A stretch of 64,000 bases of DNA, taken from positions 1-64,000 of the forward strand of contig CAADGE010000036.1 of the NCBI GenBank assembly GCA_900696465.1, read 5' to 3'. The translations under genes were made by a program, and so were the position numbers. Each line of letters begins with the position of its first letter. Position 1 is the stretch's first letter. Positions 26,230 through 44,129 of this stretch are shown in pieces. The DNA comes from an uncultured Planctomycetota bacterium (GTDB taxonomy: Bacteria > Planctomycetota > Phycisphaerae > UBA1845 > UTPLA1). The notes beneath the pieces are model-generated. The model was not told the DNA's origin and ran no database searches. It was given only the letters and a program-made list of their open reading frames with translations.

Positions 26230-27018
26230 TTAGATGTGGATGACGCCCTCAAGATAGGTCACACATTGGCCCCCGATGTAAACGCGTTCACCGCCGTCGC
26301 GGCAATGCAACTCGCCGCAGCGAGCAGAGACCTGCCGAGCGTGCAGTTCGTGCTTGCCAAGCCGGCGGGACCAATAGGGAATGAGCGTGCAGTGCGCCGA
26401 GCCGGTGACCGGGTCCTCTGGTACCGCGGCCTTCGGCGCGAAGAACCGCGAGACAAAGTCGCAGTTCATGCCCGGCGCGGTTGTAATGACCGTGAATGAG
26501 TCCAGCGCAGCCACTTTTGTCATGTCCGGGCGGAGTAAACGCACGTTGTCTTCTGAATCGAATACGGCCATCAGGTCACGCGCGTCCCAGACCTCGACCG
26601 GACGCATTCCGAGTGCGTCGACGATTGCTTCGGTGATTTCGCTGCGAGCCGCCGGACGCGCCGGGAAATCAAGAATCAGATAATCACCCTGGCGATCAAC
26701 CGCCAGCACGCCGCTTCGAGTGGAGAATCGGAGTCGCTTCCCGGTGTAGTTCAGGTGCTGCCAGAGGACGTGTGCAGCCGCGAGCGTGGCATGACCGCAG
26801 AGGTCCATTTCCAGATTCGGCGTGAACCAGCGCAGGTCGTAGTCCGCATCCTTCGATCGAGCCGGGCATATGAATGCGGTTTCGGAGAGGTTGTTTTCCG
26901 CCGCGATGTTCTGCAGCACGGGGTCCAGCAGCCAGGTTTCAAGCGGGACGACTCCCGCGGGATTGCCGCCGAACAATTGCGAAGTGAATGCATCGATCTG
27001 AAAAAACCGCAACGGCAT
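26230..27018 (-). CDS. PhzF-family isomerase/epimerase-like protein
   Basis: A 262-residue diaminopimelate-epimerase-fold protein of the PhzF family. Landmarks: QIDAFTSQLFGGNPAGVV at the N terminus, ENNLSETAFI with the catalytic Glu, RWFTPNLEMDLCGHATLA and PEDPVTGSAHCTLIPYWS near the C terminus. PhzF itself isomerises a phenazine precursor, but most family members are uncharacterised, and no phenazine genes are present. Start: ATG 27018 has GGAGGT eight bases upstream and matches the family N terminus; the longer frame does not. It is a single-gene transcription unit. Confidence 0.9.
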   Translation of the reverse strand: MPLRFFQIDAFTSQLFGGNPAGVVPLETWLLDPVLQNIAAENNLSETAFICPARSKDADYDLRWFTPNLEMDLCGHATLAAAHVLWQHLNYTGKRLRFSTRSGVLAVDRQGDYLILDFPARPAARSEITEAIVDALGMRPVEVWDARDLMAVFDSEDNVRLLRPDMTKVAALDSFTVITTAPGMNCDFVSRFFAPKAAVPEDPVTGSAHCTLIPYWSRRLGKHELHARQVSARCGELHCRDGGERVYIGGQCVTYLEGVIHI

Positions 27019-40544: not shown

Positions 40545-41642
40545 TTACTTTGGCTTATCTCCGCAAGGACTCGTTGTGCCGTGCTTCGTGACCGGGATTG
40601 CTTCGGTCGCTTTGGCCCGAATCGTTAATCGATCACCGCGCCGTTCAACCAGGATACCGCCGGGAAGCTCGATGTGGCGAAGTCGACCGTCACCATCAGC
40701 GAGTTCTGCAGCGGCCTCGATCCGTTCGAAGCCGATTTCGCCGAAGCGCGCATCGAGTGCTTCAAGAGCCAGCAGGACACACTCCGTGCGGATCGCAGGG
40801 GGCTGAACGGCGAGACCTCGTGCCCGAAGGACACATTGATCTGCGCTACTCGATTCGCAGATATCTCTCATGGCCGCCGCGGCCAGTTCACGGATCACTT
40901 CGTTTGCACGGCGGGCCTGTTCGGCAAGCTGCACGATGGCCTGCGATGCGGCAGGGTTCAGTTCTTTTTCCAGCATCGGCAAGACGACATGGCGGACGCG
41001 ATTGCGTGTCGCGACTGCATGATCCGCATTGGTGGCGTCCTCTCGATAGGCGATGCCGCGTCCCTGCAGATATGCGCGCAACTCGCAGCGGCGAAAGCCC
41101 AGCATCGGTCGAATCAGTCTTACCTGACTGCCGGCACGGATCGGCCGTTGCAGGGACATGCCGGAAAGTCCGCGAAGCCCTGTGCCGCGTGCGATGCGAT
41201 GGAGCACGGTTTCCGCTTGGTCATCTGCGCTGTGGCCAACCGCTACAACACTGGCGCCGACTTTCGCTGCAAGATCGGCAAAGAATTCATATCGCATTTC
41301 ACGCGCGGCGTCCTCGATGCCCCGGCCGGTTTCCTCCGAGAAGTTACCTACATCCGCGATACCGACTGTGCAGGGTAAACCGAGTTCGGACGACATCTCC
41401 TGCACAAATCGGGCGTCGTCGCCGGACTCGGCACGTAGTTGATGATCGAGATGAGCCACGTGAAGTGACCACCGGCAGTCGTGCAGTTCGCTGACTTTCA
41501 GGAGCCCGTGCAGCATGGCCACGGAATCCGCCCCGCCTGAAACCGCACAGACCAGCTTCGTTCCGCGGGGCACGAGATGCCGGGCTACCTCATGGACTCT
41601 GCGGTGAAAGGCTCGTTCATCCACGATTGCACCGACAGACAC
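40545..41642 (-). CDS. tilS: tRNA(Ile)-lysidine synthase
   Basis: Converts C34 of the CAU-anticodon tRNA-Ile to lysidine, using ATP and lysine. The PP-loop is VCAVSGGADSVAML, followed by LDHQLRAESGDDARFVQ, GHSADDQAETVLHRIARGTG and RPMLGFRRCELRAYLQGRGI, all typical of TilS. Length of about 365 fits the shorter TilS forms. The first GTG (41642) overlaps a TATAGT hexamer (41641-41646, minus strand); if that is the -10, the in-frame GTG at 41624 is a more likely start. Confidence 0.93.
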   Translation of the reverse strand: MSVGAIVDERAFHRRVHEVARHLVPRGTKLVCAVSGGADSVAMLHGLLKVSELHDCRWSLHVAHLDHQLRAESGDDARFVQEMSSELGLPCTVGIADVGNFSEETGRGIEDAAREMRYEFFADLAAKVGASVVAVGHSADDQAETVLHRIARGTGLRGLSGMSLQRPIRAGSQVRLIRPMLGFRRCELRAYLQGRGIAYREDATNADHAVATRNRVRHVVLPMLEKELNPAASQAIVQLAEQARRANEVIRELAAAAMRDICESSSADQCVLRARGLAVQPPAIRTECVLLALEALDARFGEIGFERIEAAAELADGDGRLRHIELPGGILVERRGDRLTIRAKATEAIPVTKHGTTSPCGDKPK

Positions 41643-41960
41643 TATAACGCATGGGTCCGTCGGTTACGCGGAAACAGCAATTCAGGCGTTCCTGTCCTGT
41701 TCAATGCAAATGGGGCAGGGAGAATCCCTCGTCGCACATTATGCCCGTTCGAGAGAGATCGAAGTCGTCTGAGAAAAGGCGGAAGCGGTTAACAGACAAC
41801 ATGTCAAGCAAGAAGGGAAGCTGGTTTTACAGTACGCACTGGGATGTAAAACTACAATAATCCCGCTCGACACAGCCGTTGATACGGCTGTGCGCCATCC
41901 AGTGCTGCTGGACCCCGTGCTTCCCCACTTGCTGACGAAGCTCAGGCTTCGATTGATCGC
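41643..41960. other. AT-rich intergenic stretch
   Basis: About 320 bases downstream of the small membrane-protein gene and upstream of tilS. The only clear structure is the perfect inverted repeat at 41871-41892. Short open frames in both directions lack ribosome-binding sites and family similarity. Confidence 0.4.
41871..41892. other. perfect 8-bp inverted repeat
   Basis: CACAGCCG and CGGCTGTG are separated by a six-base loop (TTGATA). Neither side has a T-tract directly after it, so an intrinsic terminator is not certain. It lies 69 bases after the stop of the small gene at 41961 on the minus strand and could end that transcript or bind a regulator. Confidence 0.5.
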
Positions 41961-42077
41961 CTAGATTGGCAGGAGATTAATGATCGGAATGCCGATCAGT
42001 GCCAACTCGGCAAGCCAAATAACAGCAGCGATGGGCCACAGAAAAGCAATCGCAAGCAAAGGCAGCCACTCCATCAT
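41961..42077 (-). CDS. 38-residue hydrophobic membrane protein
   Basis: Short open frame starting ATG ATG, then EWLPLLAIAFLWPIAAVIW and a second hydrophobic half ending in INLLPI before TAG. Only three acidic residues and no basic one are present; the rest is almost all hydrophobic, so it should insert in the membrane as one long or two short helices. Support for translation: GAGGT five bases upstream of the first ATG; a near-consensus promoter at 42144-42171; and a strong hairpin in the leader. It fills an otherwise gene-free, AT-rich region. No family recognised; it could be a small regulatory membrane peptide or a type I toxin-like peptide. Confidence 0.6.
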   Translation of the reverse strand: MMEWLPLLAIAFLWPIAAVIWLAELALIGIPIINLLPI

Positions 42078-42103
42078 ATTGCACCTCATATAAAATTGGT
42101 TTC

Positions 42104-42135
42104 AGGAGACCCGCCTCGGCGGGTTGGCGTCTCCT
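42104..42135 (-). promoter_or_regulatory. leader hairpin of the small membrane-protein gene
   Basis: The outer arms are seven perfect pairs (AGGAGAC at 42104-42110 with GTCTCCT at 42129-42135) and the inner arms CCCGC and GCGGG close a four-base loop. It lies between the predicted transcription start (about 42137) and the ribosome-binding site (42083-42087), so it is part of the 5' leader. No T-tract follows, so it is more likely a stabilising or regulatory element than a terminator. Confidence 0.55.
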
Positions 42136-42143
42136 CTGCGCGG

Positions 42144-42171
42144 ACTATAATTAACAATGTATCGTTGTCAA
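42144..42171 (-). promoter_or_regulatory. sigma70-like promoter of the small membrane-protein gene
   Basis: On the minus strand a perfect TTGACA (-35, 42166-42171) is followed after 16 bases by TATAGT (-10, 42144-42149). It is the best -35/-10 pair I found in the window. It points at the 38-residue gene, with a leader of about 60 bases. Confidence 0.65.
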
Positions 42172-42285
42172 CACAAATTAACATGATCGGCAGTGCAATC
42201 GTTCAGGCACCATGGGTGCATTGCATGTTAAGATAGGCAATATTTTTTGGTTCCATTCTTCTTACTTGCACCCTTCAAAATCAAT

Positions 42286-43368
42286 CTATGGCACGGAATT
42301 TGTCCCGGCCTCTGCCAATTCCTTGCGGCGCAACTGCCCGCACGCCGCGTCGATGTCGAGGCCGCGGCTGGTGCGGATGTGGGCATTGACCCCGTGGCGG
42401 CGCAGCGCTTCAACGAAGCCATGGGCCGCTTCGCTCGCGGGCCGTTCATAGGGCAGACCTTCGACGGGGTTGTAGCGTATCAGATTCACGTTGCAACGAA
42501 GCTGCCGGCAGAAGCTCGCCAGCTGAGAGGCATGTTGCGGCCGATCGTTTACATTGTGCAGCAGGATATATTCGAGTGTGATTTCTCGGCCGGTCTTCTC
42601 GAAATAATGACGACAGGCATCGACAAGCTGTTCGAGCCCGATGCGCTCGGCCCAGGGGATCAATTCCTGTCGGAGGGCGTCGCTCGGGGCATGCAGCGAC
42701 AGGGCCAGGTTGATTTGCAGGCCCTCGCCGGCCAAACGGTGGATCATTCGCGGCAGCCCGACGGTGCTGATGGTGATCTTGCGAGCCCCGATGTTCGGCC
42801 CCCATGGCGCGTTGATCATTCGCACGGCGCGGAGGACGGCGTCGTAGTTCGCCAGCGGCTCGCCCAGGCCCATGAAGACCACGTTCGACAGCTGGCCTCC
42901 GGCCAGCGTTGCTTCCGCACTGATTCGTAGAACCTGCTCGACGATTTCGCCGGTCGTCAGGTTGCGCACCAGCCCGCCAATCCCGCTGGCGCAGAAGCGG
43001 CACTGCGCCGGGCATCCGACCTGCGAGCTGATGCAGGCCGTCCGCCGGGTCTCCGTGGGGATCATCACGCACTCGCTGGTGGCCCCGTCGGGCCAGCGCA
43101 GCAGCAGCTTGACTGTGCCGTCGCTGGAGACGCCTCGGCGGATGATTTCAGACTTATAGATGCGAAAGGACTGTCCAAGCCGCTCGCGCAGGGGCTTGGA
43201 GAGATTGGTCATTTCTTCGAAGGAGGTCGCACCTCGTTCGTAGATCCATTGAAAGACCTGCTTGGCACGAAACGAGGGCTCCTCATGCTGGGTGAACCAG
43301 GCGCTCAGCGCGGGCGGATCCATTTCAAGAAGGTGAGGAGGGGTTGACTGGAGGGGCAGAGAGGACAT
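42286..43368 (-). CDS. rlmN: 23S rRNA (adenine-2503-C2)-methyltransferase
   Basis: Radical SAM methyltransferase acting on A2503 of 23S rRNA and A37 of some tRNAs. The cluster motif GCPAQCRFCASG (CxxxCxxC), VVFMGLGEPLANYDAV, ISTVGLPRMIHRLA, LALSLHAPSDALR, and VNLIRYNPVEG are diagnostic; the catalytic Cys lies in TSRGLDIDAACGQLRRK. The ATG at 43368, eight bases after the pyrH stop, is preferred over the longer frame. It takes the place that frr occupies in most rpsB-tsf-pyrH operons. Confidence 0.96.
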   Translation of the reverse strand: MSSLPLQSTPPHLLEMDPPALSAWFTQHEEPSFRAKQVFQWIYERGATSFEEMTNLSKPLRERLGQSFRIYKSEIIRRGVSSDGTVKLLLRWPDGATSECVMIPTETRRTACISSQVGCPAQCRFCASGIGGLVRNLTTGEIVEQVLRISAEATLAGGQLSNVVFMGLGEPLANYDAVLRAVRMINAPWGPNIGARKITISTVGLPRMIHRLAGEGLQINLALSLHAPSDALRQELIPWAERIGLEQLVDACRHYFEKTGREITLEYILLHNVNDRPQHASQLASFCRQLRCNVNLIRYNPVEGLPYERPASEAAHGFVEALRRHGVNAHIRTSRGLDIDAACGQLRRKELAEAGTNSVP

Positions 43369-43376
43369 CACGGACC

Positions 43377-44129
43377 TTATTCGCTGATCCGAGTTCCGAT
43401 CGGCTTGCCCTGCACGGCATTGCGCATGTTGCCGTGCTTCATCAGACTGAAAACAGTAATCGGCACGCCGTGTCGCTGGCACAAATCAACCGCGGACACG
43501 TCCATCACTCGGAGACGGTCGTCAATCACCTGATTGTAGCTCAGGCGGTGGAGAAACTTCGCCCGGGGGTCCTTCTTGGGGTCGGCGGTATAAACACCAT
43601 CAACGTTGGTGGCCTTGAAGAGCACGTCAGCATGGATTTCGACCGCGACCAGCGCGGCGGCGGTGTCGGTGGTGACGTAGGGGCGTCCGGTGCCGGCGGC
43701 GAGAATCACGACGCGGCCTTTTTCCAGATGGCGGATGCAGCGTCGCCGGATGAAGCTCTCACACGCGCTGTGGATGGCGATGGCGGACTGAACGCGGACC
43801 GGCTGGCCCAGTTCTTCGAGCATGTCCTGCAGGGCCAGGGCGTTGATGACCGTCGCCAGCATGCCCATGTAGTGGGCGGTGGCTTCCTGGATGCTCAGTT
43901 CCTGGGCGATCTTGGCGCCGCGCAGAAAATTGCCGCCGCCGACGACCACGGCGACCTGCACGCCGAGCTTTGAGACGCTGATGACCTCTTCCGCGATGCG
44001 ACGCAGCGATTTACCGTCGATGCCGAAATCGCCGGGCCGGCAGAAGCCCTCGCCGGAAATCTTCAGGACCACCCGCTGAATCTTGCGGGCGCTGGTCCGT
44101 CGGGAGGCCTTGGCTTTTTTCTTAGGCAT
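43377..44129 (-). CDS. pyrH: uridylate kinase
   Basis: Phosphorylates UMP to UDP, an entry step to pyrimidine nucleotides and cell-wall precursors. Amino-acid-kinase fold: VVLKISGEGFCRPGDFGID, VAVVVGGGNFLRGA, PYVTTDTAAALVAVEIHADV and KATNVDGVYTADPKKDP match bacterial UMP kinases. Length 250 is slightly long because of a basic N-terminal extension (MPKKKAKASRRTSARK). Third in the rpsB-tsf-pyrH-rlmN order, 54 bases after tsf. Confidence 0.96.
   Translation of the reverse strand: MPKKKAKASRRTSARKIQRVVLKISGEGFCRPGDFGIDGKSLRRIAEEVISVSKLGVQVAVVVGGGNFLRGAKIAQELSIQEATAHYMGMLATVINALALQDMLEELGQPVRVQSAIAIHSACESFIRRRCIRHLEKGRVVILAAGTGRPYVTTDTAAALVAVEIHADVLFKATNVDGVYTADPKKDPRAKFLHRLSYNQVIDDRLRVMDVSAVDLCQRHGVPITVFSLMKHGNMRNAVQGKPIGTRISE

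Follow-up and report, generated by a model that had tools for sequence, protein, structure and literature searches.

The 64-kb window (the whole stretch of 64,000 nucleotides that was analyzed) carries on its minus strand a 38-codon frame which, judged from sequence comparison, is a real gene, because the protein is found again, at a different locus, in two related species, and the encoded peptide is under purifying selection. The gene belongs to a narrowly distributed, apparently new family of 30–38 residue single-pass membrane proteins in Planctomycetota. We consider it slightly better than an even chance (about 0.55) that it forms a stand-alone transcription unit, whereby its single-pass protein would act on a larger membrane protein as an accessory or regulatory helix.

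A search for the peptide in related genomes had been proposed by the initial annotation, and with the 38 residues as query against 120 relatives it yielded two homologues, one in G001, a congener (67% across 30 residues, E = 7.5e-6), and one in G010, which belongs to the same family (48% across 27 residues, E = 0.0066). These homologues comprise 33 and 30 residues, respectively, and their starts coincide with that of the window frame. Comparison of the window with G001 over 30 codons revealed 10 identical codons, 10 with synonymous and 10 with non-synonymous changes, whereby codon positions one to three were changed 8, 6, and 18 times, thus the third most often. The corresponding dN/dS is 0.28/3.93, i.e., about 0.07, and the values for the three pairs of family members are 0.07, 0.23, and 0.44. 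For all three pairs the amino acid identity was above that obtained when the same changes were placed at random (P < 0.0002, 0.01, and 0.0024).

The frame consists of 38 codons plus the stop codon TAG. There is a second in-frame ATG upstream at 42089; since both the Shine-Dalgarno sequence and the homologues point to 42077, the latter was taken as the start. Among the 408 window frames of 25–60 amino acids, this is the only one that reaches a 19-residue hydropathy of at least 2.2, and AlphaFold2, run on the single sequence, predicted one helix spanning residues 4–35 (pLDDT 94). Thus, a conserved short frame with one predicted transmembrane helix was found, which is what characterizes a small single-pass membrane protein. 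Lys, Arg, His, and Cys are absent from all three family proteins, each of which contains two Glu. Invariant in the three members are M1, E3, W4, L5, L8, P15, I16, A18, W21, L22, A23, and E24, whereby a family of only three members defines the conserved positions weakly, and no clustering of the invariant residues on a single face of the helix was observed (P 0.15–0.36).

The family is present in 3 of the 17 family genomes examined, namely the window genome, G001, and G010. A three-row profile recovered the same three members from 114 genomes of the order and no further credible member from 397 class genomes or 392 phylum genomes. The weak profile matches in other families (L106, L109, L156, L157, L166, and L167) were rejected as chance, each being either a short match within a longer frame or part of a frame dissimilar to the family. 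No relative was found in viral contigs and plasmids, two phage records gave chance-level matches only (E 8), and there was no matching family in Pfam, NCBIfam, PHROG, or PDB (best sub-threshold matches E 0.03–0.08). When the 211-nt unit was used as DNA query against 61 genomes, it returned only short weak matches beyond the window itself.

Table 1. Elements of the small-gene unit, given in window coordinates.
Feature	Position	Strand	Evidence or remark
Promoter TTGACA-16-TATAGT (TTGACA begins at 42171, TATAGT ends at 42144)	42144..42171	(-)	Consensus scan; alignable with the G001 region
Bulged leader hairpin with 6 outer and 5 inner pairs	~42133-42102	(-)	Folding; G001 and G010 have hairpins at the corresponding place
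Shine-Dalgarno sequence GAGGT	42083..42087	(-)	5 nt before the ATG, outside the hairpin
38-codon gene MMEWLPLLAIAFLWPIAAVIWLAELALIGIPIINLLPI, predicted single transmembrane helix	41961..42077	(-)	Homologues, codon substitutions, hydropathy, AlphaFold2
Imperfect hairpin of ~134 nt, beginning 24 nt downstream of the stop codon	41803..41936	(-)	Fold z -5.0

The order of promoter, hairpin, GAGGT-5-ATG, and 38-codon frame described by the initial annotation was found as such on the minus strand (Table 1). Its consensus promoter proved to be the sole 11/12 sigma-70 match at a spacing of 15–19 on both strands of the window, whereas the chance expectation for the spacing-16 pattern with one mismatch is 0.01. 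The ribosome-binding site leads into the start codon of the frame as GAGGT-GCAAT-ATG. In order to follow the leader in relatives, as had likewise been suggested, the upstream regions were aligned: over the 115 nt upstream of the ATG, only 2 of 1000 shuffles align as well as promoter and leader of the window and G001 do, but the G010 leader could be aligned with neither of the two. A strict scan of G001 yielded no consensus promoter. The proposal of a small membrane-protein gene with its own promoter is supported, at the level of sequence, by homologues, purifying selection, hydropathy, and the unique promoter. Just upstream of the promoter there is also a perfect 8-nt inverted repeat, TTAACATG/CATGTTAA (42178–42231, 38 nt between the arms), which is possibly a regulator site or due to chance.

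The minus-strand gene order is rpsB, tsf, pyrH, rlmN (stop at 42286), the small gene, tilS, and a gene for a PMT-family membrane protein, whereby rpsB and tsf were named from sequence and the other neighbors by Pfam. The small gene thus has an RNA-modification gene on either side, rlmN and tilS. With the longest tilS frame the rlmN–tilS gap measures 643 nt; the tilS start is most likely GTG at 41624, because this matches the homologues, which makes the gap 661 nt. In G001, G002, G003, G014, G006, and G008 the same gap is about 21–132 nt long. Since it is so much longer here than in the relatives, the unit probably arrived as a cassette, and its insertion between rlmN and tilS in the window genome is the simplest reading. 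The gap has a GC content of 49% compared to 61% for the window. In G001 and G010 the small gene is located 3′ of aceF, in tandem with it, and faces a methyltransferase gene; the direction of movement was inferred from the fact that these two relatives share the other site. The window genome has aceF and its closest methyltransferase relative on other contigs, and no small hydrophobic frame was found downstream of either, nor was another one found in the rlmN–tilS gaps and methyltransferase flanks of the relatives. The three sites do not have a single neighbor gene in common. Within its genome the unit occurs as a single copy. A 20-nt inverted repeat spans the unit, for which a mobile-element end was considered; no further copy of the gap exists in the genome. 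As to the neighboring genes, the listed rlmN frame (42286–43482) overlaps pyrH by 106 nt, and the true rlmN start is probably located near 43368 (MSSLPL). In G007 and G015 the stretch aligned to the rlmN frame contains an in-frame TGA, which probably lies upstream of the true start.

The long hairpin at the 3′ side of the gene ranks first in GC-corrected fold strength in the window on each of the two strands, and is situated within the DNA that is absent between rlmN and tilS of the relatives. At the matching place in G001 there is a hairpin that clearly resembles a terminator and has a T run. The window hairpin has no T run and thus is not a plain terminator; it might represent a 3′ end/insulator or an insertion scar. 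By the same GC-corrected measure, the segment 50721–50880 ranks second on the plus strand. The 3′ hairpin is identical to 26915–26932 over 18 nt, which was taken as chance, the latter segment being within another coding gene. The arrangement of a single small gene and a long hairpin behind it, placed between genes that are adjacent in relatives, resembles an integron gene cassette; however, the window unit has its own promoter. The candidate of an integron attC site was rejected, as neither a GTTRRRY nor an RYYYAAC box occurs at 41600–42300 on either strand.

The initial annotation had pointed to a resemblance to type I toxins. According to this explanation, the peptide would damage the membrane and be restrained by an antisense RNA, whereby leader and 3′ hairpin would tune toxin translation. 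Small size, hydrophobicity, a single helix, a strong promoter of its own, and structured mRNA ends are indeed shared with Ldr/Fst, TisB, and Ibs, and the patchy presence at differing genomic positions would also be in line with a toxin. However, the window protein is anionic, and no member has a single Lys, Arg, or His, with two Glu in each. Cationic residues, generally C-terminal, are common but not universal in type I toxins, and IbsC, ShoB, and DinQ have a C-terminal part without positive residues (PMC8309996), which leaves the explanation some room. In TisB, toxicity depends on the C-terminal lysines (PMC11449926). Furthermore, a consensus scan of the three loci for a cis antisense promoter-like site facing the frame gave none, the unit is single copy, plasmids and viral contigs contain no relative, and the phage matches are at chance level. 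Because cationic residues are common in the class but absent here, and because the consensus scan gave no facing antisense promoter-like site, a type I toxin is less likely, and we regard this resemblance as an unlikely guide to function.

It could also be that the protein belongs to a respiratory complex as one of its small subunits, comparable to CydX in cytochrome bd oxidase or to the small subunits found in cbb3 oxidases. Its size, its one helix, the conserved Trp near the start, and the conserved Glu near residue 24 would fit; CydX/YbgT (PF08173) is similar in size, in its early Trp, in Gly9 (present in two members), and in an acidic residue at about 24–25. When compared to the E. coli CydX sequence, G001 and G010 were matched by only 12 and 14 of 2000 shuffles, respectively, whereas the window protein had no such similarity. 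The CydX motif is YxxWxxGx15E/D (PMC4325964). No member contains a Tyr, and the window protein has P6 and A9, so the motif is not present. Moreover, cydA (PF01654), the oxidase gene looked for in the carriers G000, G001, and G010 (genomes 96–97% complete), is absent from them, which makes a CydX-like function in cytochrome bd oxidase very unlikely for these carriers. Identity with CydX was rejected on these two grounds. The gene is located outside a cyd operon, is not adjacent to respiratory genes, and has no Pfam or NCBIfam match; altogether, a respiratory subunit seems quite unlikely.

A further explanation concerns the leader, which might be a regulatory RNA (a sensor or attenuator), with the peptide being mainly a translated leader. 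The leader hairpin sits just 3′ of the likely transcription start. Of the hairpin initially described, with seven outer and five inner pairs, the hairpin itself is present, but the two stems share one G and cannot pair simultaneously in full; 6+5 (or 7+4) pairs are able to form together. A hairpin is found between promoter and Shine-Dalgarno sequence in all three species (folds as good in 15, 12, and 2 of 200 shuffles), whereby the window hairpin alone, with 15/200, is unexceptional. Six T come after the hairpin in G001. However, this T run right after the hairpin occurs in G001 alone, the hairpin sequence is not conserved, and the arms of the three sequences do not align. No Rfam family matched the leader at the gathering threshold (one weak sub-threshold match, E 1.4). 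The Shine-Dalgarno sequence is free of the hairpin, the peptide is under purifying selection, and the downstream genes differ between the sites. The suggested control by the leader is thus not borne out, and a regulatory leader appears highly improbable. Since a hairpin is present without sequence conservation, mRNA protection would fit better than ligand sensing. Finally, a chance open frame beside the promoter of a non-coding RNA, with which the strongly structured 3′ region would agree, is already contradicted by homologues with matching start and synonymous substitutions and has a next to negligible probability.

We therefore return to the stand-alone unit with an accessory membrane helix. 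The strong sigma-70 promoter would give rise to a short monocistronic mRNA, which the 5′ hairpin may shield from decay while leaving the Shine-Dalgarno sequence exposed; the long 3′ hairpin perhaps also protects it from decay. The peptide would then insert into the membrane as one helix and act as an accessory or regulatory part on a larger membrane protein, whereby contact and anchoring residues may be provided by two conserved stretches, EW at one end and PI.A..WLAE nearer to the other. As the three sites share no neighbor, gene neighborhood points to no particular partner protein. Such a role has parallels: among the characterized small proteins of bacteria, many consist of a single hydrophobic helix, and AcrZ and CydX work on or in larger complexes (PMC6005532, PMC7267776). 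A bolder idea, which we regard as rather doubtful, is that the promoter, the 5′ hairpin, the tiny gene for an anionic membrane protein, and the long 3′ hairpin together constitute a self-contained unit, which moves from site to site in one family of Planctomycetota and tunes a membrane complex by an undescribed mechanism.

As in the class of AcrZ, KdpF, and YohP, the protein has less than 50 residues, one hydrophobic helix, and its own short gene, which was probably missed by ordinary annotation. It differs from this single-helix class in having no positive residues and no Pfam, NCBIfam, or PDB relative, and no shuffle-supported similarity to KdpF or YohP was observed. The finding does not overturn the existing picture: small single-helix membrane proteins are an already known kind of gene, whereas this family appears to be new, narrow, and relocated between genomes. 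A literature search found no dedicated work on Planctomycetota small proteins. The combination of a unique promoter, the synonymous substitution pattern, and the relocation shows that the sequence by itself is sufficient to find such genes, and the 38-residue protein together with its two homologues presents a concrete target for tagging and pull-down.
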